From positions 62,001 through 126,000 of the forward strand of contig NZ_BFCB01000002.1 in NCBI RefSeq assembly GCF_003569045.1: 64,000 nt of DNA, given 5' to 3'. The notes beneath the pieces were generated by a model that saw nothing but the letters and a program-made list of their open reading frames with translations, ran no database searches and was not told the DNA's origin. How positions within the stretch are numbered: the stretch's first letter is position 1; each line of letters opens with the position of its first letter. Shown here piece after piece: positions 32,615 through 59,752 of this stretch. Made by a program: the position numbers and the translations under genes. The stretch comes from Aggregatilinea lenta (GTDB lineage: Bacteria; Chloroflexota; Anaerolineae; Aggregatilineales; Aggregatilineaceae).

Positions 32615-32615
32615 C

Positions 32616-38615: not shown

Positions 38616-38631
38616 CTATCACCGTCGATCT

Positions 38632-38661
38632 GACGGGCGCAGGAATCATCCTGCGCCCGTC
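38632..38661 (-). terminator. intercistronic hairpin in the sucrose operon
   Basis: A 13-bp perfect stem (GACGGGCGCAGGA with its complement, four-base loop) fills most of the gap between binding-protein and MalF-type genes. No T-run follows on the minus strand, so partial termination or 3'-end protection of the binding-protein message is likely. Confidence 0.65.
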
Positions 38662-38668
38662 ACTGTTG

Positions 38669-40009
38669 TTATTCAGCGAGTTCCAGTTCGTATTCCGCCT
38701 GGACAGCCTCAAGAAGACCAGCAGCATCTTGCCTGCCGCCGACCATCTTCTGAAGCTCAGGCGTCCAGCCCTGGGCGAAGATGGCGCTTGTCGCGTTGGC
38801 GATGAAGTCCATCGACGTTCCGGCCTCGCCGACGACTACACCGGCGGCCAGCGTCTCGTTAATGACCGAGCCTTCAGTCACGGCTGGCATCTCAAGCCCC
38901 GACGGACCGCCCGGGTTGGAGCCACCGATCGTGACGTTGATCTCGCGTGCCACGTCGTTGCTGGCGACCCAGTTAAAGAAGAACGCAGCGCAGTCCGGGT
39001 TCTCGGCATTGGCGGCGATGCCGTAGGTCAGCGGAGCGGACATGGCCGCAGGCGATCCACCGGCCTCAGCGGGCGGCATCAGGAAGAACCCGACGTTGCC
39101 AGGCATGTCCGTATCGTAGCTAGCATTCTGCCAGTCACCATTGAACATGAATACCCCTTCGCCCTGGCCGAAGCGAGCGTTGGCATCGGTATACTCGATG
39201 GCGTTGATGTCGGGCGGGAAGTAGCCGTTCTCGATCCACTGCTGCAGATGTTCAGCAGCAACCAGATTCGATTCGGTGTCGATGGTCGCGTCAGCCTTCT
39301 GGAAGATCCAGTCGTTGATCGGATCGACCGGGCCAACGGATGCCATGAGCGCCTGCAGCGGGAAGGCGAGTCCCATACCACTCTTGGCGCTGCCCCACTG
39401 CATGATCGGGAGCAGATCGGCGTCCTTCGCTGCCGCGAGCAGGTCTTCGAACTCGGCGAGCGTCGCGGGCGGTTCGGTCATGCCAATCTGGGCGGCCTGC
39501 TCTTTGTTGTAGTAGATACCGGTCAGGCTGTAGTTGAGACCCATCGCATAAAGTGAGCCTGAGCCACGGGTGCCGTCTTCTCCGACGCGGTTCTGGTTGA
39601 GCTGAGGCACGGGCCACTCGTCCCAACCGAACGCAGCGGCGTAATCGTCAAGGTTCATGAGCAGTCCCTGCTCGGCAAACGAAACCATGGTAGGCAGCCG
39701 AATGAGATCCGGCGGGTTGTCGCCAGAGAGCAGCCGAGGCGTCGAGTTGATGAGATTCGCGAACTGGTCCTGCTTGATGTCCCAGGTCACGTTCGGGTAC
39801 TGGTTAGTGAACTCGTCGGCAAGTTCGAAGGGGATGTCGAACCCAGTCTCGAAATAGGCGTTGAGCGTTACCGGCTCGGTCCCGCAGCTAGGCTGCTCGG
39901 ACTGGGCCATGACGGCTGGCGCCTGCACCGCCACGAAGGGCATCTGCGCGGCAATCAAGAGAACCGCCAGCATGGTGGCCGTGGAAATGAGCTTGCGTTT
40001 CTTAAACAT
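38669..40009 (-). CDS. extracellular sugar-binding protein of an ABC transporter (sucrose operon)
   Basis: Solute-binding protein family 1, 446 residues. Signal peptide: MFKKRK, hydrophobic core STATMLAVLLIAAQ, cleavage region PAVMAQS. A cysteine at about position 41 lies after the cleavage site (SEQPSCGTEP) and is not in lipobox context. The mature part has family marks YYNKEQAAQIGMTEPPATLA and FMFNGDWQNASYD. GGAGG before the ATG at 40009 sets the start. It is the first structural gene after the lacI-type gene, 349 bases downstream of it. Confidence 0.92.
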   Translation of the reverse strand: MFKKRKLISTATMLAVLLIAAQMPFVAVQAPAVMAQSEQPSCGTEPVTLNAYFETGFDIPFELADEFTNQYPNVTWDIKQDQFANLINSTPRLLSGDNPPDLIRLPTMVSFAEQGLLMNLDDYAAAFGWDEWPVPQLNQNRVGEDGTRGSGSLYAMGLNYSLTGIYYNKEQAAQIGMTEPPATLAEFEDLLAAAKDADLLPIMQWGSAKSGMGLAFPLQALMASVGPVDPINDWIFQKADATIDTESNLVAAEHLQQWIENGYFPPDINAIEYTDANARFGQGEGVFMFNGDWQNASYDTDMPGNVGFFLMPPAEAGGSPAAMSAPLTYGIAANAENPDCAAFFFNWVASNDVAREINVTIGGSNPGGPSGLEMPAVTEGSVINETLAAGVVVGEAGTSMDFIANATSAIFAQGWTPELQKMVGGRQDAAGLLEAVQAEYELELAE

Positions 40010-42988: not shown

Positions 42989-44530
42989 TTACACCATCAA
43001 AGATACCGGCAGCTTTCCGGTGGGAACAAACCGGCCCTGCAATGCATCCACCGCCGCCTGCAGCGACGGCGCGCTATCGCCACAGGTAAGCAGGATTGTC
43101 CCGGCCCCTTCCAGCACGCCCGCATCATAGGGGTTGCGCAAACATACCAGGATCGTGCGCTGGCCTGTTGCGATCAACGTCTGGGCGACAGCACGCTGCG
43201 CCGGATTCAAATGAGCGTTCCGCGTGGCGATGACTAGCACGCCGGTTTGTGAGGCGAGCGTCTGCGCCTTCGCTGAGGCGCTTTCTGCCGGATTCGCCGC
43301 ATCCAGAGAGACACTCTGTACGCCCGGCACAACGCTCGCCAATAACGATACAAACCCGGTGCGCCCTCCCGATTCCAATACCAGGGATTCGAGGGCAGAC
43401 GCAAACTCGACGACGCCAACCGCCCCGTTCAGGGGTAGATTGTGCTGGTCATCATGCACCAGGACTATTCCCGCGCGCGCGGCCTCCTCCATTACGGCCA
43501 GATGGTCCGAACAGCGAATGACATCCATTGAGGGCCGGTTATCGGTAACTGCAAAGCGAGCTTTCATGGCCTGAATCTTGCTCAGAGAAAAGTCAATTTT
43601 CTCCTCCGGCAAACGACCTGAGCGGGCGGCTTCCAACAGCGCATCATGGGCCGCTTCCTGATACTCGCGCGTGTGCGAGAACAGGATGATGTTCGCCCCG
43701 GCAAGGGCCGCCAGGACCGCCGACTCACCCGGACCATACGCGTTGGTCACCGCCTTCATTTCCATGCAGTCCGTGACCACCAAGCCCTCAAAGCCCATAT
43801 CCCGCCGCAGCAGGCCTTCGATGATCTTGGGAGACAGGGTTGAAGGCTGAGCGTCGATCGACTTGAACTGAGCATGCGTAATCAACATGGAGGCGATCCC
43901 GGCCTGACTCACTGCCCGAAATGGGACCAGATCCGTATCCCACATTGTATCCAGCTCGCCTTCGATCACAGGCAGGCTGACGTGTGGATCAACCGGCGTA
44001 TCTGCTTTACCGGGAAAGTGCTTGGCCGTTGCCGCCACGCCCGCGTGCTGAAAACCGCGCACCTGTGCCGCACCCAGGCGGGCGATACGCTCCGGATCGA
44101 TGCCGAGGGAGCGTGTCCCGACGGACGGGTTGTGAATGTTATGGGTGATATCGAGAGCCGGAGCCAGGTTCCAGTTGATACCCAGTGCGCGCATTTCGGT
44201 GGCCAGCACGGACGACACGTTCTCGGCGAGCGTTTCCAAATCCGCCGCGCCAAGTGCCATCGCCCCCGGACTCTCGGTAAATCCGTCTCGCAAGCGAGCC
44301 ACAACGCCCCCTTCCTGGTCAATCGCCACCAGGCAGGGTTGCGACGCGGCATCATGACACGTCTGAACCAGTTGTGCCAACTGGACAGGAGTGGCAACGT
44401 TGCGGGCGAACAGGATCACCCCGCCGATGCGCCCCTTCGCCAACCAATCCGGAATGTAACCAGGGGGTTCCAAGCCTTGAAAACCAACAACAAGCATCTG
44501 GCCGATTTTTTCTTCGAGAGTGGAGGGCAT
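42989..44530 (-). CDS. nagZ: NagZ-like beta-N-acetylhexosaminidase, GH3
   Basis: GH3 enzyme of 513 residues that would release non-reducing GlcNAc from muropeptides. The N-terminal barrel contains the catalytic nucleophile D254 in VVTDCMEMKA and the Asp-His pair D181/H183 (VDPHVSLP) that serves as acid/base in NagZ, instead of a separate acid residue. The usual KHFPGHGD motif is KHFPGKAD here (170-177). The C-terminal ~170-residue domain resembles that of Bacillus NagZ. No signal peptide is seen, so it is cytoplasmic, unlike the Bacillus protein. The ATG at 44530 is preferred over a TTG two codons upstream. It is divergent from a muropeptide-type transporter operon. Confidence 0.85.
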   Translation of the reverse strand: MPSTLEEKIGQMLVVGFQGLEPPGYIPDWLAKGRIGGVILFARNVATPVQLAQLVQTCHDAASQPCLVAIDQEGGVVARLRDGFTESPGAMALGAADLETLAENVSSVLATEMRALGINWNLAPALDITHNIHNPSVGTRSLGIDPERIARLGAAQVRGFQHAGVAATAKHFPGKADTPVDPHVSLPVIEGELDTMWDTDLVPFRAVSQAGIASMLITHAQFKSIDAQPSTLSPKIIEGLLRRDMGFEGLVVTDCMEMKAVTNAYGPGESAVLAALAGANIILFSHTREYQEAAHDALLEAARSGRLPEEKIDFSLSKIQAMKARFAVTDNRPSMDVIRCSDHLAVMEEAARAGIVLVHDDQHNLPLNGAVGVVEFASALESLVLESGGRTGFVSLLASVVPGVQSVSLDAANPAESASAKAQTLASQTGVLVIATRNAHLNPAQRAVAQTLIATGQRTILVCLRNPYDAGVLEGAGTILLTCGDSAPSLQAAVDALQGRFVPTGKLPVSLMV

Positions 44531-44740
44531 GGGCAATGACCTACTTAGGTGACCGCAGATTCCTGCGGAATTCGCTCAAATGGATTATGCACTAAACTGT
44601 ATCGCATCGGAAACAAAACCAGTCAATCACGGCACCGCACAGCGTTGACTTTGGATACTTTTATATTATATACTCAAACTATATAGCTTATTTCACTCTA
44701 TCCTATCGTATGCCACATGCAATAATCATCTTCTAAAAAT
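44531..44740. promoter_or_regulatory. divergent AT-rich control region of the cell-wall salvage module
   Basis: The gap between the nagZ-like gene and the transporter operon is unusually AT-rich at 44655-44700. On the plus strand TTGACT (44645-44650) and ATATAC (44668-44673), 17 bases apart, are a candidate promoter of the transporter operon. No regulator gene lies next to it. Confidence 0.45.
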
Positions 44741-44769
44741 TGACGTCGCCCGCTGTGGCGTCAGTTTTT
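44741..44769 (+). terminator. terminator-like hairpin in the operon leader (possible attenuator)
   Basis: TGACG...CC pairs with GGCGTCA around CGCTGT, then GTTTTTG follows. It has the form of a small intrinsic terminator, but it lies between the candidate promoter and the binding-protein start codon at 44898, so it may be a leader attenuator. Confidence 0.5.
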
Positions 44770-44897
44770 GCTTGCATCGCTTTGTTGCGCGGGTTTATCC
44801 ACCAAAAAGGGGGAAGCATACAACTTCAGTTTCACAACCCATCGCTTCACGTCCCAATCGTCCGAGTAAACAGTTTTGCGGAGACATGGAGAAAAAA

Positions 44898-46670
44898 ATG
44901 AAGCGCTCCTTGCACCTCATCATGATCATAACCCTGGCCTTCGGGTTTGTCGGGGCTACAAGCTTACACTCCCCCACGGTCCAGGCACAGGATGCCCCCA
45001 GCGGCATCTGGTACGGCACATGGCCCTACGTCTTACCCCCCGAACACAGCTTAAATGGCTTTGTCACGAACGGCGGCGTGGAGACTAACCTGGGCGTGAT
45101 GTTCCGCAGCTACGTCGAAATGCCCATGACCTTCTATATGTGGTCCACCGGCGAATACCTCCCACTGCTGGCGGATTCGTGGGGCTTTTCGGACGACAAT
45201 TCGTATTATTGGACCAAGATCCGCGAAGACGCTAATTGGAGCAACGACGAGCCGGTGACGGCGGACGACGTTGTGGCGACTTACGCGATCGGTCGCATCA
45301 TGGGATGGTCGGACTTCGCCTACATCGACAGGGTTGAGAAAGTAGACGAAAAAACGGTCAACTACTACTTCCTGGAAGGCCAGCAGTCACTGCTTGCCGA
45401 GCGCTTCATCCTGAAGAACTACATCGTGAGCGCGGCGACCTATGGCGACCTCGCCACGAAGGCCCAGGAACTATATGACAGCGGTGCGACCAGCGACAGC
45501 GAGGAATGGTCGGCCCTCATCGATGAGATCAACGCCTTCCGGCCCGAAGAGCTGATCGCTTCCGGCCCCTACACCTACACGCTCGACGACGTAGGCGATA
45601 CATATATGACGCTCCACTGGCAGCCGAACAGCATCTTCTCCGACAGCGTGAACTTCGGTGAAATCCGTATCTGGGCCGGAGAGACGGAAGCCACAACCCC
45701 GCTGGTCATGAACGGCGAAATCGCCCACGCGACGAACGTCTATCCCCCTTCGACGCTGGATGCCTTCGATGCCGCAGGGATCAAAACGGTCTCGATTCCG
45801 CGCGGATATGGCCCTGCCCTGCTGTTCCAGTTCGACGTCTATCCCTGGAACGTGAAGGAAGTCCGGCAGGCCACAGCCCTGGTGATCGACCGCGAAGAAA
45901 ACGCCTTCCTGACCAACGGCCTCGGCGCTACGGCAACCGTGTATATGAGCGGCCTGTCCGATTCGATGGTCCCGACGTGGCTCAGCCAGGACGTAATCGA
46001 TCAGCTTGACCACTACGAGTTCGATCCGGATCGCGCCGGCGAGTTGCTGCGCAGCGTGGGCTTTGAGCTGAACGATGACGGTAAGTGGGCAGACGCGGAC
46101 GGCAACCTCATCAAAGCCGAGTTCAAGTTCCCGGCGGAGTTCAACGACTTCTCCGGCATGGCGCTCAACGCAACCGAGCAGATGAACGAATTTGGCTTTG
46201 ACGTCACAGCTCGCGCGATCCCCTGGCAGCAGTGCGCGGAAGACATCCGCAACGGCGACTTTGAGCTGTCGGTCTGGAGCTGGTCGAGCGCATCGCCCTT
46301 CCCGGCCCGCCAGTTCTACGGCCCGATCCAGCGCTTCAACTATGTCGGGCTGACCCAGGAACAGAAGGGGATGAACTTCCCGATGGAATTTGAGTGGAAC
46401 GGCGAGCAGATCGATCTCGACCAGATGATCAACGACACCAGCGCCGGACTCGACATCGAGAAGCAGAAGGAAGTCACCGAGGAAGTAGCGCTCATCATCA
46501 ACAATCTGATGCCCTACGTCCCATTGAACATGCTTGTCAGCGTCGAACCGTTCAACACGGATCTGATTGACGGCGCGCCTGCACCGGACGATCCGATCAT
46601 GCAGAACCCAAGCGGCATCGATCATTTCGTGATCTACACCCTGCTGACGGGCGTACTGGCTCCGAAATAG
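44898..46670 (+). CDS. peptide/muropeptide-binding protein of an ABC transporter (family 5)
   Basis: Extracytoplasmic solute-binding protein family 5 (OppA/DppA type), 590 residues. The signal peptide is MKRS followed by LHLIMIITLAFGFVGA and the cleavage region TVQAQDA, without lipobox cysteine. The mature part shows family 5 features: EMPMTFYMWSTGEYLPLLAD, the ANWSNDEPVTADDVVATY motif and WNVKEVRQATALVIDRE. GGAG six bases before the ATG at 44898 decides the start; an ATG at 44886 has its GGAG too close. It is the first gene of a nine-gene operon whose later genes degrade muropeptides, so cell-wall peptides or muropeptides are the expected ligand. Confidence 0.9.
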   Translation: MKRSLHLIMIITLAFGFVGATSLHSPTVQAQDAPSGIWYGTWPYVLPPEHSLNGFVTNGGVETNLGVMFRSYVEMPMTFYMWSTGEYLPLLADSWGFSDDNSYYWTKIREDANWSNDEPVTADDVVATYAIGRIMGWSDFAYIDRVEKVDEKTVNYYFLEGQQSLLAERFILKNYIVSAATYGDLATKAQELYDSGATSDSEEWSALIDEINAFRPEELIASGPYTYTLDDVGDTYMTLHWQPNSIFSDSVNFGEIRIWAGETEATTPLVMNGEIAHATNVYPPSTLDAFDAAGIKTVSIPRGYGPALLFQFDVYPWNVKEVRQATALVIDREENAFLTNGLGATATVYMSGLSDSMVPTWLSQDVIDQLDHYEFDPDRAGELLRSVGFELNDDGKWADADGNLIKAEFKFPAEFNDFSGMALNATEQMNEFGFDVTARAIPWQQCAEDIRNGDFELSVWSWSSASPFPARQFYGPIQRFNYVGLTQEQKGMNFPMEFEWNGEQIDLDQMINDTSAGLDIEKQKEVTEEVALIINNLMPYVPLNMLVSVEPFNTDLIDGAPAPDDPIMQNPSGIDHFVIYTLLTGVLAPK

Positions 46671-46689
46671 AGTTTCGGGTAACAATCTC

Positions 46690-46717
46690 ATGGGCGGGAG
46701 AGTTTTCTCCCGCCCAT
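46690..46717 (+). terminator. intercistronic hairpin after the binding-protein gene
   Basis: A perfect 12-bp stem (ATGGGCGGGAGA and TCTCCCGCCCAT, loop GTTT) begins 20 bases after the stop codon and is followed by TCTATTC, a weak T-rich tail. Partial termination or RNA stabilisation is likely, as in the other transporter operons here. Confidence 0.65.
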
Positions 46718-46777
46718 TCTATTCACGCTAACCAGACGCGGTAGAAATGGTATTTTTCAGCTAGACAGGACAATGGT

Positions 46778-47872
46778 ATGGAAACAGCAGCGCCCCAGGT
46801 TTCTCCCGCCCACCCTCCCCAGGTCGAGCAGCACGGCATCTTCGGTTTATTCAGGCGCATGGCAGGCAACTACACGTTTCGGGTGGTGCTCCAGGGTGTA
46901 CTGACCTTATGGGCGGTCACAACATTTACCTTCATCCTGATCCGTCAAATGCCGGGCAATCCGGTCCAGATCAAAATCGACCAGTTGATGGACCAGCGCC
47001 AAATGTCCCTTGACGAGGCGCGCCGCAGTGCTGCCGGATTGTTCGACTTCGATCCTGACGAGCCGCTCATCCAGCAGTATGTGCGCTATCTGGGGAAATT
47101 AGTCCAAGGCGATCTAGGCTCGTCGATCCTGTCTGCGGGAACGCCGGTAACCGCCCAGATCAAGCGCTACCTGCCGTGGACCCTGTTCAGCGTGGGATCG
47201 GGACTGCTCATCAGCTTCACGCTGGGCGTACTGCTTGGCATGGCGATGGCTTACTGGCGCGGCGGCATATTGGATAACGTGATGACCGCGCTGGCATCGA
47301 TCATGTACGGCGTCCCAGACTTCGTGATCGCCCTGCTCCTGCTCCTGGTCGCAGGCGTGCAGCTCAAGTGGTTTGAAATTGGCGACGTTCTCGGGGGTGT
47401 CAGCCAGGACGTTGACGCGGGTTTCAACTTGTCCTACATCGCCAACCTGATCCAGCACGCGGCGCTGCCCGTGCTCACCTACGTCTGGACGACCGTCGGC
47501 GGCTGGATCCTGACCATGAAAAGCAGCACCATCTCGACGCTTGGGGAAGACTACATCACCGTCGCGAAAGCGCGCGGCCTGCCCGAACGGCGCATTCTGA
47601 CCGCTTACGTGGGGCGCAACGCGATGCTGCCGCTGGTCACACGGCTGGCAATCAGCATCGGATTTGTCGTGGGCGGCAGTGTCATCATCGAAACGATCTT
47701 CCAATATCCGGGTCTGGGGCGGCTCCTCTATACGTCGATTAGCTCACGTGACTACACCACGATGCAGGGCGTCTTCTTAGTCATTGCCGCGGCGGTGGTG
47801 TTCTCGAATATTCTGGCCGACCTGTTGTTTGGCGTGCTGGATCCCCGCGTCCGTATCGGAGGCCAGAAATAA
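46778..47872 (+). CDS. ABC transporter permease, DppB/OppB type
   Basis: Inner-membrane permease of 364 residues from the BPD-transporter family. After a ~40-residue cytoplasmic N terminus the first helix is VLQGVLTLWAVTTFTFILIR, followed by the DppB-type RQMPGNPVQ motif. The ATPase-contact loop is EDYITVAKARGLPERRILTAYVGRNAMLP. About six helices are seen. Its TAA overlaps the ATG of the next permease by one base. It forms the channel with the DppC-type protein. Confidence 0.93.
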   Translation: METAAPQVSPAHPPQVEQHGIFGLFRRMAGNYTFRVVLQGVLTLWAVTTFTFILIRQMPGNPVQIKIDQLMDQRQMSLDEARRSAAGLFDFDPDEPLIQQYVRYLGKLVQGDLGSSILSAGTPVTAQIKRYLPWTLFSVGSGLLISFTLGVLLGMAMAYWRGGILDNVMTALASIMYGVPDFVIALLLLLVAGVQLKWFEIGDVLGGVSQDVDAGFNLSYIANLIQHAALPVLTYVWTTVGGWILTMKSSTISTLGEDYITVAKARGLPERRILTAYVGRNAMLPLVTRLAISIGFVVGGSVIIETIFQYPGLGRLLYTSISSRDYTTMQGVFLVIAAAVVFSNILADLLFGVLDPRVRIGGQK

Positions 47873-49074
47873 TGGGCATCGACCATGCAATCGGCTTCGG
47901 AGCGGCGGCGTCCCTGACCGGATTGCTCATCGGTATCGTATGCGGTTTGGTCCCGCTGGTCCTCGGACTGCGTCACCAGTTCGTGCGCCCTGCCCTGCTC
48001 GGATTTGTGGTGTGCGTCTTTGGCGGGTTCGCAGCGGGCATTTGGGGCGGCCTCATGATGATCGTGCTCTCGACTGCGGTCGTCATGTCGTACGCTTACG
48101 TGGATCGCAAGGATCCCTTCACCTCGCGCGCATCGATCGATCAGGTGAGCTTCGAGGAATCGAACTTCGACTTCTTCATCCGCCAGATGGCGGCGCTGGG
48201 CCGCAGCACGCGCGCTGCCAGTCACGCTCTGGTACGCAACAAGGCGGGCTTCATCGGCTTCCTGGGCCTGTTATTCTTCTTTGTCATGACGGTCTTTGGC
48301 CCGCTGGTCATCGACTATGACGGCAGTACCCACCTCGAACGGCGGCGACCCAATGCATCGTCGCTGTACCAGGAGCCATCGCGCGAATATCCGCTGGGGC
48401 TGGACTGGCAGGGGCGCGATGTACTCTCGCACATCGTCTACGGCGGGAAGAACCTGATTCTCGTGTCCGTCGAGGCCGGTTTGCTCACCACCGCTGTTGC
48501 GGTGATCCTCGGCTCGGTGGCCGGGTTGTTAGGTGGGGTTGTGGATCAGGCGCTCTCCGCGCTCTCCAACTTCATCCTGACGATCCCATCCTTCCCGCTG
48601 CTGTTAGTGCTGGCCAGCATCATCACATTCGACAACCTCACCTACCTCGCCCTGTTGTTTGCCGCGCTGTACTGGCCCACGCTGATGCGTGCCGTGCGCG
48701 CCCAGGTGTTCAGCCTGCGCGAGCGTGACTACGTTCAGGCAGCAATTGCGCTTGATCTGGGATTGCCGCACATCATTTTCCGTGAAGTGCTGCCGAACAT
48801 GATCAGCTATATCGTCGTCAACATGATTTTCACGATCCGCAGCGCCATGTACAATCTGGTCGGGTTGATCTTCCTGGGCATGGTCCCGATTCAAGAACCC
48901 GATTGGGGCGTCATGATCTACTTTGGGCGAACTAAAGGCGCGATCTTCAACGCGGACGCAGCCAGCATGCTCATCTCGCCGATCGTCGCCATCGCCCTGT
49001 TCCAGTTGTTTCTGGTGCTGTTCACGCGCTCACTCGAAGAAATCTTTAACCCACGCCTCCGGTCCGGGTTGTAA
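47872..49074 (+). CDS. ABC transporter permease, DppC/OppC type, with extra N-terminal membrane domain
   Basis: Permease of 400 residues. The C-terminal ~280 residues are a normal DppC: first helix AGFIGFLGLLFFFVMTVFGP, the EYPLGLDWQGRDVLSHIVYG motif and the loop RERDYVQAAIALDLGLPHIIFREVLPNMI. Before it lies an extension of ~115 residues with about three hydrophobic helices (ASLTGLLIGIVCGLVPLVLG, LLGFVVCVFGGFAAGIWGG, LMMIVLSTAVVMSYAYV) that ordinary DppC proteins lack. It overlaps the dppB-type gene by one base and precedes the ATPase genes. Confidence 0.9.
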   Translation: MGIDHAIGFGAAASLTGLLIGIVCGLVPLVLGLRHQFVRPALLGFVVCVFGGFAAGIWGGLMMIVLSTAVVMSYAYVDRKDPFTSRASIDQVSFEESNFDFFIRQMAALGRSTRAASHALVRNKAGFIGFLGLLFFFVMTVFGPLVIDYDGSTHLERRRPNASSLYQEPSREYPLGLDWQGRDVLSHIVYGGKNLILVSVEAGLLTTAVAVILGSVAGLLGGVVDQALSALSNFILTIPSFPLLLVLASIITFDNLTYLALLFAALYWPTLMRAVRAQVFSLRERDYVQAAIALDLGLPHIIFREVLPNMISYIVVNMIFTIRSAMYNLVGLIFLGMVPIQEPDWGVMIYFGRTKGAIFNADAASMLISPIVAIALFQLFLVLFTRSLEEIFNPRLRSGL

Positions 49075-49086
49075 GGAAAACACGTC

Positions 49087-50106
49087 ATGCCAGGCAACGA
49101 CGTCGTCCTCAGCGTCCAAGATCTTTCAGTCAACTATCTCACGCCGCGCGGCCAGCTTCAGGCGGTCAACCATGTCTCGTTCGATCTCCACAAACGCGAG
49201 ACGCTCGCCATCATGGGCGAGAGCGGCTGCGGCAAATCGACCCTAAATCTCGCGCTGATCCGGCTGCTCGCCAGCAACGCGACCATCCCAAACGGCAAGA
49301 TCATCTACAGTTCCCGCGACGGCTCCAAAATCGATGTGCTCAAGCTGAGCCAAAACGGGCTGCGGCGGTTCCGTTGGAGCGAATGCTCGATGGTGTTTCA
49401 GGGCGCGCTGAACGCACTGAACCCGGTCATCCGCATCCGCGACATGTTTTACGACACCGCCCGCGCGCACGGGGAGCGCAACCAGCGCCGGGTGCGCGCC
49501 CATGCGCTTGAGTTGTTCCGCAAAGTACGGCTGGATCCTCAGCGGGTGTTCGACGCCTACCCGCACGAACTCAGCGGCGGCATGCGCCAGCGCGTGCTGA
49601 TCGCGCTCGGTCTGCTGCTCGATCCGCAGGTCGTCATTCTGGACGAGCCGACGACCGCAGTGGACATCCTCACCCAGCGGACCATCATCGACGTGCTGAA
49701 AGCGCTCCGCGACGAGCTTGGCTTCAGCATTCTGTTCATCAGCCACGACCTGTCGGTCGCGGCGGAAATGGCGGACACGGTCGCCACCATGTACGCGGGC
49801 GAAATCGTCGAGATCGGCCCCGTGGGCCAGATGTTCTACCGCCCACGCCACGCCTATACGCTGGGGCTGCTTGAGGCGATCCCGCGTCTGAGCGCCGGGG
49901 CGGAAGAGTTGATGAGCATTCCCGGCAGCCCGCCCGACCTCATCGAGCCGCCTTCGGGATGCAAGTTTCACATCCGCTGCCCGTTCGCCACAGAGCAGTG
50001 TGCCGCGTCGGTGCCGCCCACGGAACAGGTCGGCGCAAATCATCTCGCCGCGTGTTTTGAAGCCGAAAAAGTACTCGCCAGGGCATCGGAGACTGTCGGA
50101 GTATGA
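49087..50106 (+). CDS. ABC transporter ATP-binding protein, DppD/OppD type
   Basis: ATPase of 339 residues that powers the peptide-type transporter. Walker A is GESGCGKST (44-52), the signature LSGGMRQR, Walker B VVILDEPTTAVD, and the switch histidine is in FISHDLS. The C-terminal oligopeptide-transporter extension with cysteines (CKFHIRCPF and EQCAASVP) matches the iron-sulfur-type motif of DppD proteins. It overlaps the next ATPase gene by four bases. Confidence 0.95.
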   Translation: MPGNDVVLSVQDLSVNYLTPRGQLQAVNHVSFDLHKRETLAIMGESGCGKSTLNLALIRLLASNATIPNGKIIYSSRDGSKIDVLKLSQNGLRRFRWSECSMVFQGALNALNPVIRIRDMFYDTARAHGERNQRRVRAHALELFRKVRLDPQRVFDAYPHELSGGMRQRVLIALGLLLDPQVVILDEPTTAVDILTQRTIIDVLKALRDELGFSILFISHDLSVAAEMADTVATMYAGEIVEIGPVGQMFYRPRHAYTLGLLEAIPRLSAGAEELMSIPGSPPDLIEPPSGCKFHIRCPFATEQCAASVPPTEQVGANHLAACFEAEKVLARASETVGV

Positions 50107-51152
50107 GCCAGCCACTTGTTGAGTTGCGCCATGTCGATCGCACGTTCAAGCAGGGCCGCAGCACAATTCCAGTTCTGCAAGACGTCAATCTCGCCGTTCA
50201 CCCAAATGAGATCGTGTGTCTGGTCGGTGAAAGCGGCTGCGGGAAAACCACCACGGGCAAGATCATGGTTGGTCTGTTGTCGGCTTCGTCCGGCGAAATC
50301 CTGCTGCAAGGCCGCCCCCTGGACGCCTACCACGGCGAGGAACGCGCGGTCTTCCGCCGCTCGCTGCAAATCGTCCATCAGGACCCATTCGCGTCATTGA
50401 ACCCGTCCCATACCATCGGCCAGATCCTCAGCTTCCCGCTCAAACGGCACAAGATGGTCAGCGGGCGCGCGGAGCTGCGGCATCGGATCTGGGAGCTGCT
50501 AACCCTGGTGGACCTGACGCCGCCGGGTGACATCGTGAACAAGTTCCCCCACCAATTGAGCGGCGGCCAACGCCAGCGCGTCAGCATCGCTCGTGCCCTG
50601 ACTGTTGAACCCAAGCTGATCGTCGCCGACGAAGCCGTCAGCATGGTGGATGTGAGCATCCGGGTCGGGCTGCTGAAGATGCTACACAACCTGCGTGACA
50701 AGCTGAATGTCGCCATCGTCTTCATCACGCACGATCTGGCGCTCGCCAAGTATTTCGCGTGGGAGGGGCGCATTGCGGTAATGTACCTGGGGCGGATCGT
50801 CGAGATTGGCCCTACGCGGGAGATCATCTCGAACCCGGCACACCCGTATACGAAGGCGCTCATCTCCGCGATTCCTGAAGCAGATCCGGAGCTAACCAGG
50901 AATAAGCAGCGTATGCACCTGCGCAGCGAAGATATCCCCAGCCTGACTGAGATTCCACCGGGCTGTGCGTTTCATCCGCGCTGTCCGTTCTTCGTGCCGG
51001 GCCTGTGCGACGCGCAGGTTCCGCCACTGGCCAACGCACCGGGATACATTCAGCAGGTCGCGTGCCTGCCGCTTACCGAGGGACAGGCTTTGCGCGAGCA
51101 CGGGAGTGCGCTTTCCTCCATCGAACTGCCGGGCAATGGATCCGAAACTTGA
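50103..51152 (+). CDS. ABC transporter ATP-binding protein, DppF/OppF type
   Basis: Second ATPase of the transporter, 349 residues. Walker A GESGCGKTT (42-50), signature LSGGQRQR, Walker B LIVADEAVSMVD (DEA instead of the more common DEP), switch region FITHDLA, and the C-terminal cysteine motif CAFHPRCPFFVPGLC. ATGA overlap with the dppD-type gene suggests translational coupling. Its last 17 bases overlap the start of a small membrane-protein gene. Confidence 0.95.
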   Translation: MSQPLVELRHVDRTFKQGRSTIPVLQDVNLAVHPNEIVCLVGESGCGKTTTGKIMVGLLSASSGEILLQGRPLDAYHGEERAVFRRSLQIVHQDPFASLNPSHTIGQILSFPLKRHKMVSGRAELRHRIWELLTLVDLTPPGDIVNKFPHQLSGGQRQRVSIARALTVEPKLIVADEAVSMVDVSIRVGLLKMLHNLRDKLNVAIVFITHDLALAKYFAWEGRIAVMYLGRIVEIGPTREIISNPAHPYTKALISAIPEADPELTRNKQRMHLRSEDIPSLTEIPPGCAFHPRCPFFVPGLCDAQVPPLANAPGYIQQVACLPLTEGQALREHGSALSSIELPGNGSET

Positions 51153-51321
51153 CGTGCTCCGGGCGTTTTTCAGGATCGGCGCGTTCATCGGCGTGTGTGG
51201 ACTGCTGCTGGTGCTTGTCGAGCCGCGTGATAGCCCGGAATTTGTGCTGAGTGTGTGCAGTGCGCTCATTGGCGGCTTGCTGATGCTGGGCGTCGTCATC
51301 GTGACGCGCGCATCGCGTTAG
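51136..51321 (+). CDS. 61-residue membrane protein in the muropeptide operon
   Basis: Small protein (61 residues) beginning MDPKLDVLRAFF, with two hydrophobic helices (FRIGAFIGVCGLLLVLVE and FVLSVCSALIGGLLMLGVVIV) joined by a short polar turn (PRDSPE) and a basic tail TRASR. The start overlaps the end of the dppF-type gene by 17 bases, and the NlpC/P60 gene begins 36 bases after its stop. GGG seven bases upstream is a weak ribosome binding site. I do not recognise a family. The position within a tight operon supports it being a real gene. Confidence 0.6.
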   Translation: MDPKLDVLRAFFRIGAFIGVCGLLLVLVEPRDSPEFVLSVCSALIGGLLMLGVVIVTRASR

Positions 51322-51357
51322 GGAACGGTCCCCCAGAGAAACAAGGAACGATATCGC

Positions 51358-52599
51358 GTGACTACCTATGCGTTGGTCCCCGTGCCACCCAATATCACCT
51401 GCGACATGCTGGAAGCACAGTTCTGGCTGGACCGTATCGAGCGACCCGCGAGGGCTTTCCTTTCTGCGGAAGGAATCGATCGATTCAACGCGCATGTGCG
51501 GGCTGTGATGGGTATTCCCGACGTTCTCGATCTCCCCGATACGCTCAACGCAGCCGACGTTCGGGCGCAAATCGCACAGTACCGACCTCCTTCGACATGC
51601 TATGACAGCGCGGGCCAGCCGCTTGAGGCCGCCTACTTTGAAACGCTGCTCGATCAGACTCTGCCCGCGCTGCCCGACCGAATTCCGGTCACGTTTGGGC
51701 TGGCCGTGCAGCGAACGACTCTGCGCAGCTTCCCCACCGACGAGATCATCACCTCGCAGCCTTTCCAGTTTGAGTTCGACCGCCTTCAGGAAACCACGGT
51801 GGACGTGGGGTGGCCGATCGCCATGTTGGTCACCAGCCGCGATGGACACTGGTGTTTCTGTCTGACGCCGATGTACTGGGGCTGGATCCGCATACGAGAC
51901 GTCGCCGTTGGAAGCCGCGAGCAGATCGCACGCTTCGTCACGGCGGAAGCCGTCGTAGTCACTACCGCCCCGCGCGGCGGCATTGGCCTGGAATCCGGCG
52001 GCAGCCTCACGCCGCAGATGGGCACGACGCTGCCTTTGGTCGAGGAAACACACGAGGCGTACCGCGTCAGCGTGCCGGAGCGCGACGAGAACGGCGAGCT
52101 GCGGATCTCGACCGGGATCGCGGCCATAGCGAACGGGCACTTTTCCGTGGGCCACCTGCCCTGCACCCAGGCAACGCTCATCACGCAGGCATTCAAGCTG
52201 CTTGGCGAACCCTATGCCTGGGGGGGATTGCGGCTGGGGATCTTCGGGCGCGATTGTTCGCGCCTGATCCGCGATGTCTTCGCCGTCACCGGTGTCCTGC
52301 TGCCTCGCAACACCGGTCAGCAGGAACGGGTTGGCATGGCGGTCGCTCGCTTTCCGGCAGGGCTGCCGGACGATGAGCGCAAGACACTTATTGTGGAACA
52401 GGTGCCGCCCGGCGCAGTCCTGGCGCTGCCAGGGCACGTAATGTTGTATCTTGGCCATACGGACGGCACACCTTACGCCATTCACGCCACCAATTCAAAC
52501 GGATTCTCACACGTGATCGTGTCGGACCTTCACTTCGGTGCGCAGTCAGCATCGGGTTCGCTGTTGCAGCGGCTCACATCCGCTGTGACGTTAGGATAG
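51358..52599 (+). CDS. NlpC/P60-family cell-wall peptidase (YkfC-like)
   Basis: Cysteine peptidase of 413 residues that would cut gamma-D-glutamyl-diamino acid bonds in murein peptides. The C-terminal NlpC/P60 domain contains EPYAWGG, catalytic C300 in GRDCSRLIRDVF, H360 in ALPGHVMLY and a third polar residue near H376 (AIHATN). The first ~270 residues resemble the stabilising and SH3b domains that precede the catalytic domain in YkfC-type enzymes (WGWIRIRDVAVGS). No signal peptide is seen, so a cytoplasmic role on imported peptides is likely. The GTG at 51358 follows AAGGA. The NamZ gene begins five bases after its stop. Confidence 0.88.
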   Translation: MTTYALVPVPPNITCDMLEAQFWLDRIERPARAFLSAEGIDRFNAHVRAVMGIPDVLDLPDTLNAADVRAQIAQYRPPSTCYDSAGQPLEAAYFETLLDQTLPALPDRIPVTFGLAVQRTTLRSFPTDEIITSQPFQFEFDRLQETTVDVGWPIAMLVTSRDGHWCFCLTPMYWGWIRIRDVAVGSREQIARFVTAEAVVVTTAPRGGIGLESGGSLTPQMGTTLPLVEETHEAYRVSVPERDENGELRISTGIAAIANGHFSVGHLPCTQATLITQAFKLLGEPYAWGGLRLGIFGRDCSRLIRDVFAVTGVLLPRNTGQQERVGMAVARFPAGLPDDERKTLIVEQVPPGAVLALPGHVMLYLGHTDGTPYAIHATNSNGFSHVIVSDLHFGAQSASGSLLQRLTSAVTLG

Positions 52600-52603
52600 C
52601 GCC

Positions 52604-53809
52604 ATGTCCACGCCTGTATACACCGGGCTTGAGGTTTTGCAGCAAGACGGTTTCCGTCGCCTGGCAGGGTTGCGCGTGGGCTTGATGACAAACCCCAGCG
52701 CCGTCGACCGCCACCTCAACAGCACTTACAGACTCCTGTCGAGCACGCCGGAAGTCCAACTCGTGGCGCTGTTCAGCCCTGAACATGGCTTTTTAGGCGC
52801 AGCGCCCGACGCCGAACAAATCGCGTCCGCCACAGATTCGCGTACCGGGCTGCCGGTCTACAGCCTGTACGGGGCAACCTTCGGTCCTACGGCGGCAATG
52901 CTTGAAGGCATTGACGTGCTGGTGTGTGACATTCAAGATATCGGCGTGCGGTTCTATACCTACGCCTGGACGGTATCCCATATTCTGGAGGCCGCGGGGG
53001 CGCAGGGTGTCGGCGTCATGATTCTGGACCGTCCGAATCCGCTTGGCGGGATGGTCGTCGATGGTCCACCGCTCAACCCCGACCTGTCATCCCTGGTTGG
53101 GCGCTTCCCCGTGCCGGTGCGGCACGGCCTGACCTTAAGCGAACTGGCGCATCTGATCAATACTCGCTGGAACGCTGCGCCCGCCGACCTTACCACTGTG
53201 CGCTGCGCAAACTGGACCCGCTCGATGACCTGGGATGCAACGGGCCTGCCCTGGGTTCCGCCCTCCCCCGGTATGCCTCATATGAGCGCGCTGTGGCACT
53301 ACCCAGGTGCCTGCCTGATTGAAGGCACAGAACTCTCCGAGGGGCGCGGAACGGCGCTGCCGTTTGAGATCGTCGGCGCGCCCTGGGTTGACGCCCTTGA
53401 CTTGGCCGAGAAGCTCAACGCCGAGGACTGGGCCGCAGCGCTGGGAGCGCGCTTCCGCCCGCACACATTCCTGCCGACCCAGAGCAAGTGGGCTGGCGAT
53501 TACTGCGGTGGCGTTCAAGTCTACATCACGGATCCGGAGCGTTGGCGGCCCATCCACGTCTGGCTGGGCGCCATCATCACGATCTATGCCCAATATCCCG
53601 AACACTTTCATTGGCTGGCCGCAGAATCCGACACAGGCATGCAGCATTTCGACCGGTTGATCGGGTCGGCTCGCGTGCGCCATGATATCGATGCAGGCAT
53701 TCAGGCAGGCAGATCCACGGGCGACATTCTATCGTTAATCACTGCTGAGTGGGACGCACACTGTCACGCCTTCGCACTGGAACGCAGCCCCTTTCTGTTG
53801 TACGACTGA
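52604..53809 (+). CDS. namZ: exo-beta-N-acetylmuramidase NamZ (DUF1343, GH171)
   Basis: DUF1343 protein of 401 residues. The characterised Bacillus member NamZ releases MurNAc from the non-reducing end of peptidoglycan fragments. Diagnostic blocks are all present: VGLMTNPSAVD near the start, FSPEHGF (58-64), DIQDIGVRFYTY (109-120), DRPNPLGG (142-149), then the SEGRGTALPFE motif and QSKWAGDYCGGVQV. Unlike Bacillus NamZ, no signal peptide is seen, so it should act in the cytoplasm. It starts five bases after the NlpC/P60 gene. Confidence 0.92.
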   Translation: MSTPVYTGLEVLQQDGFRRLAGLRVGLMTNPSAVDRHLNSTYRLLSSTPEVQLVALFSPEHGFLGAAPDAEQIASATDSRTGLPVYSLYGATFGPTAAMLEGIDVLVCDIQDIGVRFYTYAWTVSHILEAAGAQGVGVMILDRPNPLGGMVVDGPPLNPDLSSLVGRFPVPVRHGLTLSELAHLINTRWNAAPADLTTVRCANWTRSMTWDATGLPWVPPSPGMPHMSALWHYPGACLIEGTELSEGRGTALPFEIVGAPWVDALDLAEKLNAEDWAAALGARFRPHTFLPTQSKWAGDYCGGVQVYITDPERWRPIHVWLGAIITIYAQYPEHFHWLAAESDTGMQHFDRLIGSARVRHDIDAGIQAGRSTGDILSLITAEWDAHCHAFALERSPFLLYD

Positions 53810-53862
53810 GCGTCACGCAGGGCTGCTCACACCGCAGCTCAATCCAGAATGGACATAGAACG

Positions 53863-54780
53863 ATGACATCTTACCAACCGTACGTCATGGGGATCGATGG
53901 CGGGGGCAGTGGAATCCGGGTTGTCATCGTAACCCCTGATCTATCCATCCACGGCTGGAGTGAGGGGCCGACCGCCAATCCAAGCGTCGTTGGCGCGGAC
54001 GCGGCGGCGCAAATCGTCCAGACGGCCATGAAGGAAGCGCTCGCGGCTGCAGGGCTGTCATCCAGTCAGATTGCAGCCGTCGGAATCGGCATTGCGGGTG
54101 CAGCAGCCCGCCACTCGGGGGACTGGCTGCGCGCCGTCGTGGCCGAGGCGGCACCTGATGCGATCTGCGTGCCCAGCGCCGACTATGAGATCGCCCTGAC
54201 CGGCGCGCGTGGCGAACGGTGCGGGGTACTTGTGTTAGCTGGAACCGGAAGCCTCGCTTATGGAGTGAACGCGTCGGGCGCATCGGCCCTCGTGGGTGGA
54301 TGGGGCTTCCTACTCGACGATAAAGGCAGCGGCTATTGGATCGGATTACAGGGATTGAAGGCGGTCGTTCAGGCTGCGGATGGTCGCGCGCCCGAAACCG
54401 CATTGTCCCACACACTGCTCGGCGCGTTGGAGTTGCGCGCGCCGCTTGAACTGATTCCCTGGTTGTACCGCACTGAAAAAGTGCGTACTCGCGACATCGC
54501 TCAACTGGCACCGCTGGTACTGGCACAAGCAAAGCAAGGCGACGAAGCAGCTATCGCGATTGTCAAGCGGGCGGCAAGTGAACTCATGCTGGCCACGCAG
54601 ACCGTGATCCGCAGGTTGGATCTCACGACGCCTGAGTTCGCCTTCGCCGGAGGCTTACTCAGCACGCCCAATCCTCTCAGTGAGGCGCTTTGCCAGTCAC
54701 TGGGCCTGAAAGCTATTCCTGCAGCACATCATCCCCCGGTTATTGGTGCAGCGCTGCTGGCTCTCCTATCACTCAGGTAA
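53863..54780 (+). CDS. BadF/BadG-family amino-sugar kinase (GlcNAc/MurNAc kinase-like)
   Basis: ASKHA-fold kinase of 305 residues. The phosphate-1 motif is MGIDGGGSGIR (9-19) and the second phosphate loop VLAGTGSLAYG. The acidic substrate residue is in SADYEIALTGA, and FAFAGGLL is the adenosine loop. The family holds GlcNAc kinases and the clostridial MurK, which phosphorylates both MurNAc and GlcNAc. Placed as the last gene of a muropeptide operon right after namZ, a MurK-like role fits; the exact sugar is inferred from context. No murQ etherase is visible in the window. Confidence 0.87.
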   Translation: MTSYQPYVMGIDGGGSGIRVVIVTPDLSIHGWSEGPTANPSVVGADAAAQIVQTAMKEALAAAGLSSSQIAAVGIGIAGAAARHSGDWLRAVVAEAAPDAICVPSADYEIALTGARGERCGVLVLAGTGSLAYGVNASGASALVGGWGFLLDDKGSGYWIGLQGLKAVVQAADGRAPETALSHTLLGALELRAPLELIPWLYRTEKVRTRDIAQLAPLVLAQAKQGDEAAIAIVKRAASELMLATQTVIRRLDLTTPEFAFAGGLLSTPNPLSEALCQSLGLKAIPAAHHPPVIGAALLALLSLR

Positions 54781-56501: not shown

Positions 56502-57983
56502 CTAGGCTTCTTTCAGTTCGATGCAGACAAGGGTCCAGAAGTCTACAACAGGGACGGCGCAGCGCAGGTATCCATCCGACTGCGTGAAGTCGAGCGGTTG
56601 CGGCAGGCTATCCGTGTCCGGCGACACCCACCAGATCCGCGCCACATCGCCGGAAAGCGTTAGCTCAATGCTGATGTCTGTCTGAGGCTGCGGGACCGGG
56701 TTGGCGTCGTTCCACGACTGCGCGGGCTGCGCGTTTAGCACGTTGAGCGCGATCCGCCCCGGCGCGCGGCGCGCGATCACCCACAGGCCGCCTTCCGCTG
56801 TCACGCCCAGCGACGCCGGGTCCGCGAACGAGAGCAGTTCCTCGTACGCCACGCCGAAATCGGCCAGCCGCTGAAGGTCCGCGTCGAGTGCCGCCGAAGG
56901 ACGCTTTGCCAGCGGGAAATAGGGATCGGAGAGGTACAGACCGTCCTCGCCGTAGATGAGGTGATAGCCGCCGCTCGCCAGGATGACGCTGGCGGCCAGC
57001 CGCACCGTGACCTCGTGCACCGGGTCAATGTACGCGGCGATGACCGGCGTGCGTCCGCCTGATTTTTGGCGGTTCAGCGCGGCGACCTCGGCCAGATGGC
57101 CCAGGGTGGTCATGGGCGGCCACAGCTCGCAGTATAAAAAGTCGAGCGGGGCGGTGTTGATCGCATCCAGCGGCCAGTTGTGCACCATGTTGAACAGCAG
57201 GTGTTTTTCCGGCGGGATAGCCTCGCGGATGGCTTGCAGCGTGCCCACAAACGCGGCGGGCAGATCGACCGGCGCACCGCCTGCGTCAAAGCCCGTGAAC
57301 GGCTCGCCGTATTGATCGACATGGATGCCGTCGAAGGGTACCGCATCGAGCACGGCGACACAGTCGTGGGCGAAGTGCTCGCGCCAGGGTGACGCCGGAT
57401 TGACCAGCTTCAGGAAGCCATCCGCGAAGTCATACAGCACGCCGTTTTCATCGTACAGACCCCAGTCGAGATGCTCGGCGGCGAACGCGGGCGACGCGCC
57501 GTAGATCGCCGTGTAGGGCATGGCGACGATGCCGCGCGCGTGGGCTGCGTCGATCAGCTTGCGCACCGTCGCCAACGACATCGGGCGATCCAGCGGATCG
57601 ACGTATTCATCTGCTGGAGGCAGCAGGTCGTCGTGCCGGTACTGCCAGTCATAAAACTGGATGCCGTTGACGTGGTGCGCCAGCAGCCAGTCCAGGTCGA
57701 AGCTGGCGCGATCCGGCTTGAAATCGAACAGGTAGCCGTAGCGCGGCGCGTCGGTCCAGCGCGCGAGCACGTCATACGCGGTCCAGTACGTGCCGCTCCC
57801 GGCCTGGATGCGAACGCGGTAGCCGCGCTTCGGTTCGACCGGCGGCTGCCAGCGCAGCGCATCTTCACCCTGTATCGTGGCGAGGCGATCTCCTAAATGC
57901 CAGATTTCGGCCTGGAATGGTTCGCCAACCGGAATCACCACCTGCTCACCGGGGCGGAAGAATGCGTGTGTGGGTGCGATCAT
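56502..57983 (-). CDS. GH66 family dextranase-like hydrolase, cytoplasmic
   Basis: GH66-type enzyme of 493 residues, shorter than secreted dextranases. An N-terminal beta domain (residues 1-75) precedes the barrel (YGYLFDFKPD onward). The likely nucleophile is D223 in FDGIHVDQYGEP and the acid/base E286 in FLYCELWPPM, followed by a C-terminal beta domain. There is no signal peptide, whereas most known GH66 enzymes are secreted; this one would cut imported isomaltooligosaccharides. Start and stop overlap with the MalG-type gene (ATGA), AGGAA precedes, and the longer frame is thereby excluded. A cycloisomaltooligosaccharide-forming activity cannot be excluded. Confidence 0.85.
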   Translation of the reverse strand: MIAPTHAFFRPGEQVVIPVGEPFQAEIWHLGDRLATIQGEDALRWQPPVEPKRGYRVRIQAGSGTYWTAYDVLARWTDAPRYGYLFDFKPDRASFDLDWLLAHHVNGIQFYDWQYRHDDLLPPADEYVDPLDRPMSLATVRKLIDAAHARGIVAMPYTAIYGASPAFAAEHLDWGLYDENGVLYDFADGFLKLVNPASPWREHFAHDCVAVLDAVPFDGIHVDQYGEPFTGFDAGGAPVDLPAAFVGTLQAIREAIPPEKHLLFNMVHNWPLDAINTAPLDFLYCELWPPMTTLGHLAEVAALNRQKSGGRTPVIAAYIDPVHEVTVRLAASVILASGGYHLIYGEDGLYLSDPYFPLAKRPSAALDADLQRLADFGVAYEELLSFADPASLGVTAEGGLWVIARRAPGRIALNVLNAQPAQSWNDANPVPQPQTDISIELTLSGDVARIWWVSPDTDSLPQPLDFTQSDGYLRCAVPVVDFWTLVCIELKEA

Positions 57984-59697: not shown

Positions 59698-59718
59698 GAT
59701 ATGCTCCCGAGCGTGACA

Positions 59719-59752
59719 GTGATGGAGAGGCTTCAATGGACCTCCCCATCAC
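59719..59752 (-). terminator. intercistronic hairpin in the isomaltooligosaccharide operon
   Basis: On the minus strand GTGATGGGGAGG pairs with CCTCTCCATCAC (12-bp stem, one G-U pair, loop of ten). It lies between binding-protein and MalF-type genes with no T-run. Confidence 0.6.

Follow-up and report, generated by a model that had tools for sequence, protein, structure and literature searches.

An Opp-type ABC importer clustered with NamZ and NagZ in Aggregatilinea lenta: a putative route for import and cytoplasmic breakdown of muropeptides

Introduction

How do bacteria without AmpG and MurP import fragments of the cell wall? This question is raised by a gene cluster of Aggregatilinea lenta (Chloroflexota) in which an Opp-type ATP-binding cassette (ABC) importer is encoded beside enzymes predicted to degrade peptidoglycan. 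The cluster lies at positions 42,989 to 54,780 of a 64,000-nucleotide stretch of contig NZ_BFCB01000002.1 (the whole stretch is referred to here as the window). A first-pass annotation of the sequence had read it as a complete module for importing whole muropeptides and degrading them inside the cell. We consider it likely that the importer takes up small muropeptides with their stem peptide and that these fragments are dismantled in the cytoplasm. This reading is well supported by comparison, through the contrast between NamZ loci with Opp-type and with CUT1-type importers, the signal peptides of actinomycete enzymes, the grouping of the binding protein and the nature of the NlpC/P60 peptidase.

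Gene content of the cluster

As the first-pass annotation had described, nine plus-strand genes (44886-54780) form a near-continuous array that faces a divergent nagZ on the minus strand; the coordinates, families and gaps of the ten genes were confirmed.

42989-44530, minus strand: NagZ-like glycoside hydrolase family 3 beta-N-acetylhexosaminidase, 513-515 residues, without signal peptide (NF003740; PDB 6k5j)
44531-44885, no strand: intergenic region separating nagZ from the divergent ABC genes, presumably with promoter function
44886-46670, plus strand: family-5 solute-binding protein (SBP5) with a Sec-like signal peptide; SBP_bac_5, no lipobox Cys seen by eye
46778-47872, plus strand: OppB/DppB-type permease (PermB); BPD_transp_1, tree
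47872-49074, plus strand: OppC/DppC-type permease (PermC); BPD_transp_1
49087-50106, plus strand: OppD-type ATPase; ABC ATPase with oligo_HPY end
50103-51152, plus strand: OppF-type ATPase; ABC ATPase with oligo_HPY end
51136-51321, plus strand: 61-residue protein with two predicted transmembrane helices (TM61), overlapping the end of oppF; family scans and structure model
51358-52599, plus strand: DvLysin-like NlpC/P60 protein, putative gamma-D-Glu-diamino acid endopeptidase with SH3 domain, without signal peptide; SH3_6 and NLPC_P60
52604-53809, plus strand: NamZ, putative exo-beta-N-acetylmuramidase, without signal peptide; NamZ_N and NamZ_C
53863-54780, plus strand: BadF/MurK-type amino-sugar kinase, 305 residues; BcrAD_BadFG, PDB 8zo3

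With overlaps as negative values, the gaps along the plus strand are 107 bases (SBP5-PermB), -1 (PermB-PermC), 12 (PermC-OppD), -4 (OppD-OppF), -17 (OppF-TM61), 36 (TM61-NlpC), 4 (NlpC-NamZ) and 53 (NamZ-kinase), and about 355-364 bases separate the divergent nagZ and SBP5 genes. Refined starts are 44530 (ATG) or 44536 (TTG) for nagZ and 44886 or 44898 for SBP5. The kinase most likely starts at 53863, since the long open reading frame from 53749 overlaps namZ. The G+C content is 60.2% in the cluster and 59.0% in the window.

Signal peptides were assessed with a hydropathy rule of our own in two versions, one order-wide and one for the actinomycete and phylum comparisons. The second version overlooked a Tat-like NagZ in locus L140, and NamZ of L038, which is not Opp-linked, is flagged by the first version (2.12) and not by the second (0.01). 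Locus (L) and genome (G) numbers, like family and genus labels such as f1, f62 and g23, are working labels of this analysis. By this rule NagZ, NlpC/P60, NamZ and the kinase have no hydrophobic N-terminus, in agreement with what had been claimed for the degradative enzymes, and SBP5 has one. The order-wide version likewise found none on the 20 NagZ proteins of the order.

NagZ scores above the NCBIfam nagZ cut-off (NF003740, 213.8 bits vs 207), and its best PDB relative is 6k5j (2.7e-95). The Asp-x-His pair and the nucleophile Asp, which we take to be the catalytic motifs of this family, are conserved in 20 of 20 aligned proteins. NamZ contains both Pfam NamZ domains, one at 258.0 bits (cut-off 26.9) and the other at 143.2 bits (cut-off 25). 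The BadF-type kinase is a putative MurK-type kinase of N-acetylmuramic acid (MurNAc), and its nearest solved relative is a kinase of MurNAc and N-acetylglucosamine (GlcNAc) (8zo3, 1.2e-37). A specificity rule, S133-P134-L135, is described for the Tannerella MurK (PMC10465942).

The NlpC/P60 protein bears on the state in which the cargo would arrive. Its nearest solved relative is DvLysin (3m1u, 3.9e-25), followed by PnpA (6sqx), and the catalytic Cys, His and His are conserved in 7 of 7 proteins. For YkfC enzymes the N-terminal L-Ala of the substrate must be free, and these enzymes contain Asp256 and, in the SH3b domain, Tyr118 (BcYkfC numbering; PMC2954226). The position of Asp256 is occupied by Asn in the window protein, as in DvLysin, and Asn is also found in the five others that could be scored (six of eight proteins). 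The Tyr of a YWGW motif aligns with a Tyr of DPP VI (3npf) and is a possible counterpart of Tyr118 of YkfC. DvLysin reportedly has higher activity on tetra-muropeptides (PMC7860986), and a DvLysin-like enzyme without the Asp of YkfC may thus act ahead of sugar removal.

A second locus in the same genome

The genome (6.2 Mb in 5 contigs) contains a single NamZ match, that of the window, and the cluster does not amount to the complete module first proposed: AnmK, MurQ, an AmiE/PBP4B-like hydrolase and an epimerase are encoded at a second locus (contig C3, about 840.9-845.4 kb). This locus includes a hydrolase of family PF00144 together with AnmK and MurQ (C3:842136-844197), and an L-Ala-D/L-Glu epimerase-like protein on the other strand. 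AnmK scores 443.9 bits against a curated cut-off of 387 and MurQ 382 against 302; the epimerase-like protein falls under its own, and the hydrolase has PBP4B as its nearest NCBIfam model at 97 bits, under the cut-off of 385. AmiE of Bacillus subtilis presumably has the PF00144 fold, and the hydrolase is a candidate MurNAc-L-Ala amidase; SxxK is conserved in 21 of 21 AmiE-like proteins.

Neither AmpG (TIGR00901) nor the EIIC component of a phosphotransferase system (PTS) had a match in this genome, in a search that covered these two importers and no other kind of muropeptide or MurNAc importer; this result supports the proposal of an ABC importer rather than a PTS. Just before the second locus, at about 836.7-840.1 kb of C3 (L071, 10673-14098), are genes for a Dpp/Nik-type binding protein and for two permeases; ATPase genes are missing from this set, which may borrow ATPases of another system. 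The same type of binding protein and permeases precedes AmiE-AnmK-MurQ-epimerase in G016 (L078) and G005 (L080), which suggests that a second importer is possibly involved.

Conservation in the order and phylum

Sixty-one genomes of the order were sampled, including that of A. lenta, and 35 contain NamZ. Neighbourhoods were read from 33 of the other 34 (without G029; two stretches for G056), using a gene finder trained on genes from the NamZ neighbourhood annotation. At least two of the four permease and ATPase genes lie near NamZ in 20 of the 34 genomes examined, the window included. This frequency, spread over four families (f1, f2, f7 and f8), shows that the linkage is not a matter of chance. 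Where no transporter was found near NamZ (14 genomes), the contig ends close to NamZ in at least four cases (L041, L042, L043, L051). NagZ is present in 17 of the 20 Opp-type clusters, and 11 hold NagZ, NamZ, AmiE, AnmK, the kinase and MurQ together with the transporter. The fullest (L047, L048, L054) read SBP5-PermB-PermC-OppD-OppF-TM61-NlpC-GntR-NamZ-AmiE-AnmK-kinase-MurQ, then LysA and the epimerase, with NagZ at the cluster head or before NamZ. GntR regulators are common in related clusters.

Co-occurrence across the 61 genomes follows the same pattern. NamZ and TM61 are both present in 29, NamZ only in six, TM61 only in two and neither in 24 (Fisher 2.5e-9; Fisher values in this work ignore shared ancestry). 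AnmK and NamZ occur together in 34 genomes, AnmK alone in seven, NamZ alone in one and neither in 19. The association of NamZ with MurQ is weaker (both 28, MurQ only five, NamZ only seven, neither 21; 2.6e-6).

In the phylum, NamZ was found in 32 of 400 genomes, and the neighbourhoods of 30 outside the order were examined. Three of these have an Opp-type importer with NagZ, kinase and NamZ (L139, L140, L145; AmiE also in L139 and L140), 12 have a CUT1-type importer and 15 have neither. Across all 65 NamZ stretches of the phylum (the window, 34 others of the order and 30 outside it), a neighbouring AmiE or NlpC was present at 16 of the 23 NamZ loci with an Opp-type importer, at none of the 15 with a CUT1-type importer and at 6 of the remaining 27 (Fisher for Opp vs CUT1, 2.0e-5), where the types depend on our score thresholds and a slightly different rule, which classes L039 differently, gives 16 of 24 and 0 of 14. 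Profiles built from 29 AmiE and seven NlpC proteins had zero matches in the 15 CUT1 loci. NamZ is without a signal peptide in 64 of the 65 stretches, so that within this phylum the contrast lies in the peptide enzymes.

A GNAT-like protein (by eye) of about 158 residues, starting MPDMLVKLY or MTDMLVKLY, was also seen behind MurQ, NagA or AnmK, in clusters of the Opp type as well as of the CUT1 type (in NamZ orientation, L044 18006-18485, L058 17938-18414, L061 18108-18662, L129 18213-18686). This protein is conserved.

Signal peptides in actinomycete loci

Related neighbourhoods occur beyond close relatives: they were found in further families and classes and in a second phylum. A search of genome contigs with a single NamZ protein returned four loci, one of them in Actinomyces minihominis, where MurQ lies opposite NagZ-NamZ-SBP5-PermB-PermC-OppD-OppF-RpiR-kinase (RpiR by eye). 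In the order of this species NamZ occurs in 25 of 149 genomes, with 28 matches, and all 28 stretches were annotated. Six are Opp-linked (L034, L239, L240, L241, L247, L248).

By the hydropathy rule, none of the six Opp-linked NamZ proteins has a signal peptide, compared with 20 of 22 at the other actinomycete loci (Fisher 7.4e-5). The same holds for NagZ (0/3 Opp-linked, 17/18 others) and for AmiE (0/5 and 8/8). Furthermore, three genomes encode two NamZ proteins each, G522 (L224, L240), G505 (L228, L247) and G605 (L227, L248), and in all three the Opp-linked copy is without a signal peptide and the copy away from Opp genes has one. This is the strongest single result of the analysis, and it suggests that the enzymes are inside the cell where an Opp importer is present and are mostly secreted elsewhere in this order.

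Solute-binding protein and permeases

Searched as a single sequence, SBP5 had weak best matches in the PDB. A profile built from 12 of 16 orthologues was more informative: among the best 60 of 86 distinct PDB sequences, which were those examined, the top 14 are Thermotoga and Vibrio-type family-5 proteins (1vr5/4pft, 2o7i/4jsd, the mannoside binder 4pfu, 8i5j and the Vibrio chitin-oligosaccharide binders), and Dpp, Opp and Nik proteins rank lower. We take 13 of the 14 to be oligosaccharide binders, including 1vr5/4pft and 2o7i/4jsd, whose printed names say oligopeptide or nothing; 8i5j carries a generic name only.

In VhCBP, a chitobiose, (GlcNAc)2, binder of the oligosaccharide-binding family-5 cluster C-VI, loss of Asp365 costs most of the binding (PMC8449061). 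The equivalent Asp is conserved in 12 of 12 aligned SBP5 proteins, and Trp363 is replaced by Phe in 10 and retained in 2, by our reading of the alignment with a numbering offset of two; Trp513 lies beyond the alignment. SBP5 groups with the oligosaccharide-binding members of family 5. An AlphaFold2 single-sequence model of SBP5 was discarded at a mean predicted local distance difference test (pLDDT) score of 36.7.

A tree was built from 51 PermB-like proteins. In it a single set of 39 (support 97/94) unites the TM61-linked and NamZ-linked Opp permeases, with that of Actinomyces among them; the remaining 12, Dpp-type permeases drawn from these stretches and from the second locus, lie outside this set. 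The tree is rooted at its midpoint, the Actinomyces row is long, and the rows were picked by likeness to the window protein.

The small hairpin protein TM61

The newest element of the cluster is TM61, which matches no Pfam or NCBIfam family at E 0.001. In the order, TM61 and oppF are on the same strand in all 20 loci that have both, and the first possible TM61 start lies before the oppF end or at most 8 bases from it. Profile searches found TM61 in 31 of the 61 genomes of the order, always as a single copy, and, across the phylum, in 26 of 400 genomes, where the three lowest-scoring matches are doubtful; the 32 NamZ-bearing genomes account for 12 of the 26 (Fisher 3.7e-8). Twenty loci were read from 20 of the 26 genomes: at 16 of them TM61 has those same transporter genes as neighbours, and at the other four (L178, L183, L184, L185) it sits behind another ATPase. 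In L178 (9437-9631) and L184, for example, a ferric-type ABC importer (by eye) has a TM61-like protein of 60-64 residues encoded after its ATPase. No TM61 gene was seen in the Actinomyces locus, L140 or L145.

Transporter units of f63 adjoin NagA and MurQ (L181) or NagA, AmiE and AnmK (L193). Four genomes of g23 have TM61 directly before SBP5, with the other genes absent from the stretch (L157, L158, L159, L161, of which L157 and L161 were read). An orphan TM61, possibly a remnant, occurs without an adjoining transporter of its kind in G005 (L151, 11828-12040), a genome without a NamZ match. As this orphan and the TM61-like proteins behind ferric-type transporters show, TM61 also occurs apart from this importer and belongs to a wider, unnamed family associated with ABC importers; its gene mostly lies right behind that of the second ATPase.

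A single-sequence model of TM61 gives a two-helix hairpin (residues 3-28 and 34-60, mean pLDDT 81) joined by a charged turn, EPRDSPEF. In membrane proteins, positively charged segments tend to stay inside, and by this positive-inside rule the turn would face outward, towards the binding protein. We tentatively propose, at somewhat below an even chance, that TM61 is a sixth, small membrane component of an Opp-type importer subfamily, with its gene directly after that of the second ATPase across the phylum, and that, with an oligosaccharide-type binding protein, it adapts an oligopeptide importer to sugar-peptides.

Discussion

The cargo of the importer would be a GlcNAc/MurNAc disaccharide with a stem peptide, probably including 1,6-anhydro forms. 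SBP5 would hold the disaccharide, and PermB, PermC, OppD and OppF would import the fragment, with the TM61 hairpin as a putative accessory of the complex. In the cytoplasm, NlpC/P60 would cut gamma-D-Glu-diamino acid bonds, NagZ would release non-reducing GlcNAc and NamZ would do so for non-reducing MurNAc. The AmiE/PBP4B-like hydrolase encoded at the second locus would detach MurNAc from its peptide. Phosphorylation by AnmK and the MurK-type kinase would then yield MurNAc-6-phosphate (and GlcNAc-6-phosphate), MurQ would remove lactate, and the epimerase would convert L-Ala-D-Glu. The ligand of the importer, the true substrate of each enzyme and the role given to TM61 in this scheme are read from sequence comparison. 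The earlier proposal that the cargo keeps its peptide gains from such comparison as well, through the Opp and CUT1 loci, the actinomycete signal peptides and the DvLysin-like NlpC/P60.

The same machinery may feed on foreign wall debris rather than recycle the organism's own wall, a role compatible with muropeptide import that we hold to be possible, somewhat below an even chance. The window is rich in sugar ABC importers, with five CUT1-like sets of a sugar binding protein and two permeases (7678-10763, 21368-24530, 31646-34871, 36859-40009, 57980-61012; by eye), and the GntR regulators of many related clusters also fit such a role. Nothing decisive stands against it, and sequence cannot separate the two roles.

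It is unlikely that the importer carries peptide-free disaccharides (GlcNAc-MurNAc or chitobiose), with the peptide enzymes serving fragments that enter elsewhere, for example through the Dpp-type set of the second locus. The resemblance of SBP5 to the (GlcNAc)2 binder VhCBP (PMC8449061) would suit such a cargo, as would the CUT1-type loci of the phylum, where these sugars are handled with neither AmiE nor NlpC close by. However, AmiE or NlpC accompanies Opp loci and not CUT1 loci, and in the window nlpC lies between the TM61 gene and namZ, 36 and 4 bases from them. The sole GH18 match of the genome is marginal and partial (31.1 bits, cut-off 29.6), and chitin feeding is ranked lower because of this single match and the peptide enzymes.

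Several observations weigh against muropeptide import as we propose it, and two of them, the Dpp-type set and the GH20-like gene in G018, favour a peptide-free cargo. The Dpp-type binding protein and two permeases beside AmiE-AnmK-MurQ-epimerase (L071, L078, L080) could carry part of the cargo, and G005 has these genes and the Dpp-type set without NamZ and without an Opp unit. In G018 the neighbours of a TM61-type transporter are a GH20-like gene, an oxidoreductase and two ROK proteins (L153, 1-13166; by eye), and in f50 the permease-ATPase-TM61-SBP5 unit has no adjacent peptidoglycan gene seen (L174, L175, L177), so the ligands of this unit may vary. The contrast between Opp and CUT1 loci is partly confounded with lineage, since 12 of the 15 CUT1 loci come from genomes beyond the order, and the Fisher values take no account of shared ancestry. 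Eight of 24 Opp loci of the phylum have neither AmiE nor NlpC nearby, and the window cluster has NlpC without AmiE. In four actinomycete loci AmiE, there with signal peptides, lies beside CUT1 genes. NagZ proteins with a Tat-like N-terminus (by eye) lie beside Opp genes in L140 (13858-15033) and L145 (738-1847), both numbered in NamZ orientation; L145 also has a second NagZ, without such an N-terminus, adjoining NamZ. Finally, the window kinase (54295-54345) reads DDKGSG where 16 of 19 proteins have GDEG(SG), the Glu of GDEGSG being lost in the window and in two relatives, G001 and G007.

Import of free stem peptides or ordinary oligopeptides, with the sugar enzymes as a separate function in the cluster, is suggested by the Opp/Dpp family of the permeases and ATPases and by the B. 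subtilis ykfA-D genes adjoining dppB-E (PMC2954226), but it is very improbable given that SBP5 sides with oligosaccharide binders ahead of Dpp, Opp and Nik, that NlpC/P60 is without the acidic residue that helps define the free-L-Ala YkfC enzymes, and that AmpG and PTS EIIC, the two known muropeptide or MurNAc importers that the search covered, were not found.

Import of whole muropeptides by the Opp-type system remains the reading we prefer, and the genomes examined suggest a testable rule: where an Opp-type importer occurs with NamZ, the wall-degrading enzymes are intracellular and often include peptide-acting ones. The result points to one transporter subfamily in two phyla and also draws attention to the small membrane proteins of the TM61 family. 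If TM61 is a sixth component, the importer would define a third layout of murein salvage, alongside two others: secretion of the enzymes with uptake of monosaccharides, and uptake of peptide-free disaccharides through CUT1 importers. A mycobacterial preprint still names an unknown transporter for MurNAc (PMC13041923).

Comparison with known systems

The first-pass annotation knew of no described system with this composition. No title or abstract opening among the matches listed described an Opp-type importer with NamZ and NagZ, in a literature search mostly without subscription papers, so absence from print is not shown. The claim needs narrowing, as YejBEF-YepA is an ABC importer already described for muropeptides and the Bacillus mur operon contains much of the enzyme set, combined with a PTS.

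Among single components, the NlpC/P60 protein resembles the DvLysin/PnpA/EcgA group (PMC7860986) in combining NlpC/P60 and SH3b domains and in the catalytic residues of DvLysin; unlike PnpA, which is secreted, it is without a signal peptide. VhCBP and the Thermotoga family-5 binders (PMC8449061) are the nearest solved relatives of SBP5 and share the ligand-binding Asp, at a distance of about 70-105 bits by profile that leaves the SBP5 ligand putative. The Bacillus dpp-ykf region (PMC2954226) likewise places Opp/Dpp-type ABC genes beside an NlpC/P60 peptidase and an epimerase. Its YkfC requires a free N-terminal L-Ala, whereas the window enzyme is DvLysin-like and sugar enzymes are added.

If ybbC of Bacillus is namZ, as we assume, nagZ, namZ, an amiE-like gene and murQ are common to the Bacillus mur operon and the present set. 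The B. subtilis murQRP-amiE-nagZ-ybbC operon (amiE formerly ybbE) combines a PTS with extracellular degradation by AmiE and NagZ, and in Escherichia coli the PBP4B gene lies within the murQ operon (PMC5061867). In contrast to the PTS protein MurP and secreted enzymes of Bacillus, the present set has an ABC importer, AnmK and a MurK-type kinase, with no PTS EIIC match and no signal peptides.

The closest functional parallel is YejBEF-YepA, an ABC muropeptide importer of Agrobacterium; its YepA is described as confined to the Alphaproteobacteria (PMC9790009). The cluster shares with that system, whose hosts are mostly without AmpG, permeases and ATPase of the broad Opp/Dpp type. Unlike in YejBEF-YepA, the match of SBP5 to the YejA-type binding protein is marginal (about 22 bits), the YejB model scores 122.3 against a cut-off of 445, the YejF model is also far below its cut-off, and the importer genes sit with the breakdown genes. 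Since ABC import of muropeptides is already known from YejBEF-YepA, the importer described here would be a new variant and not the first of its type.

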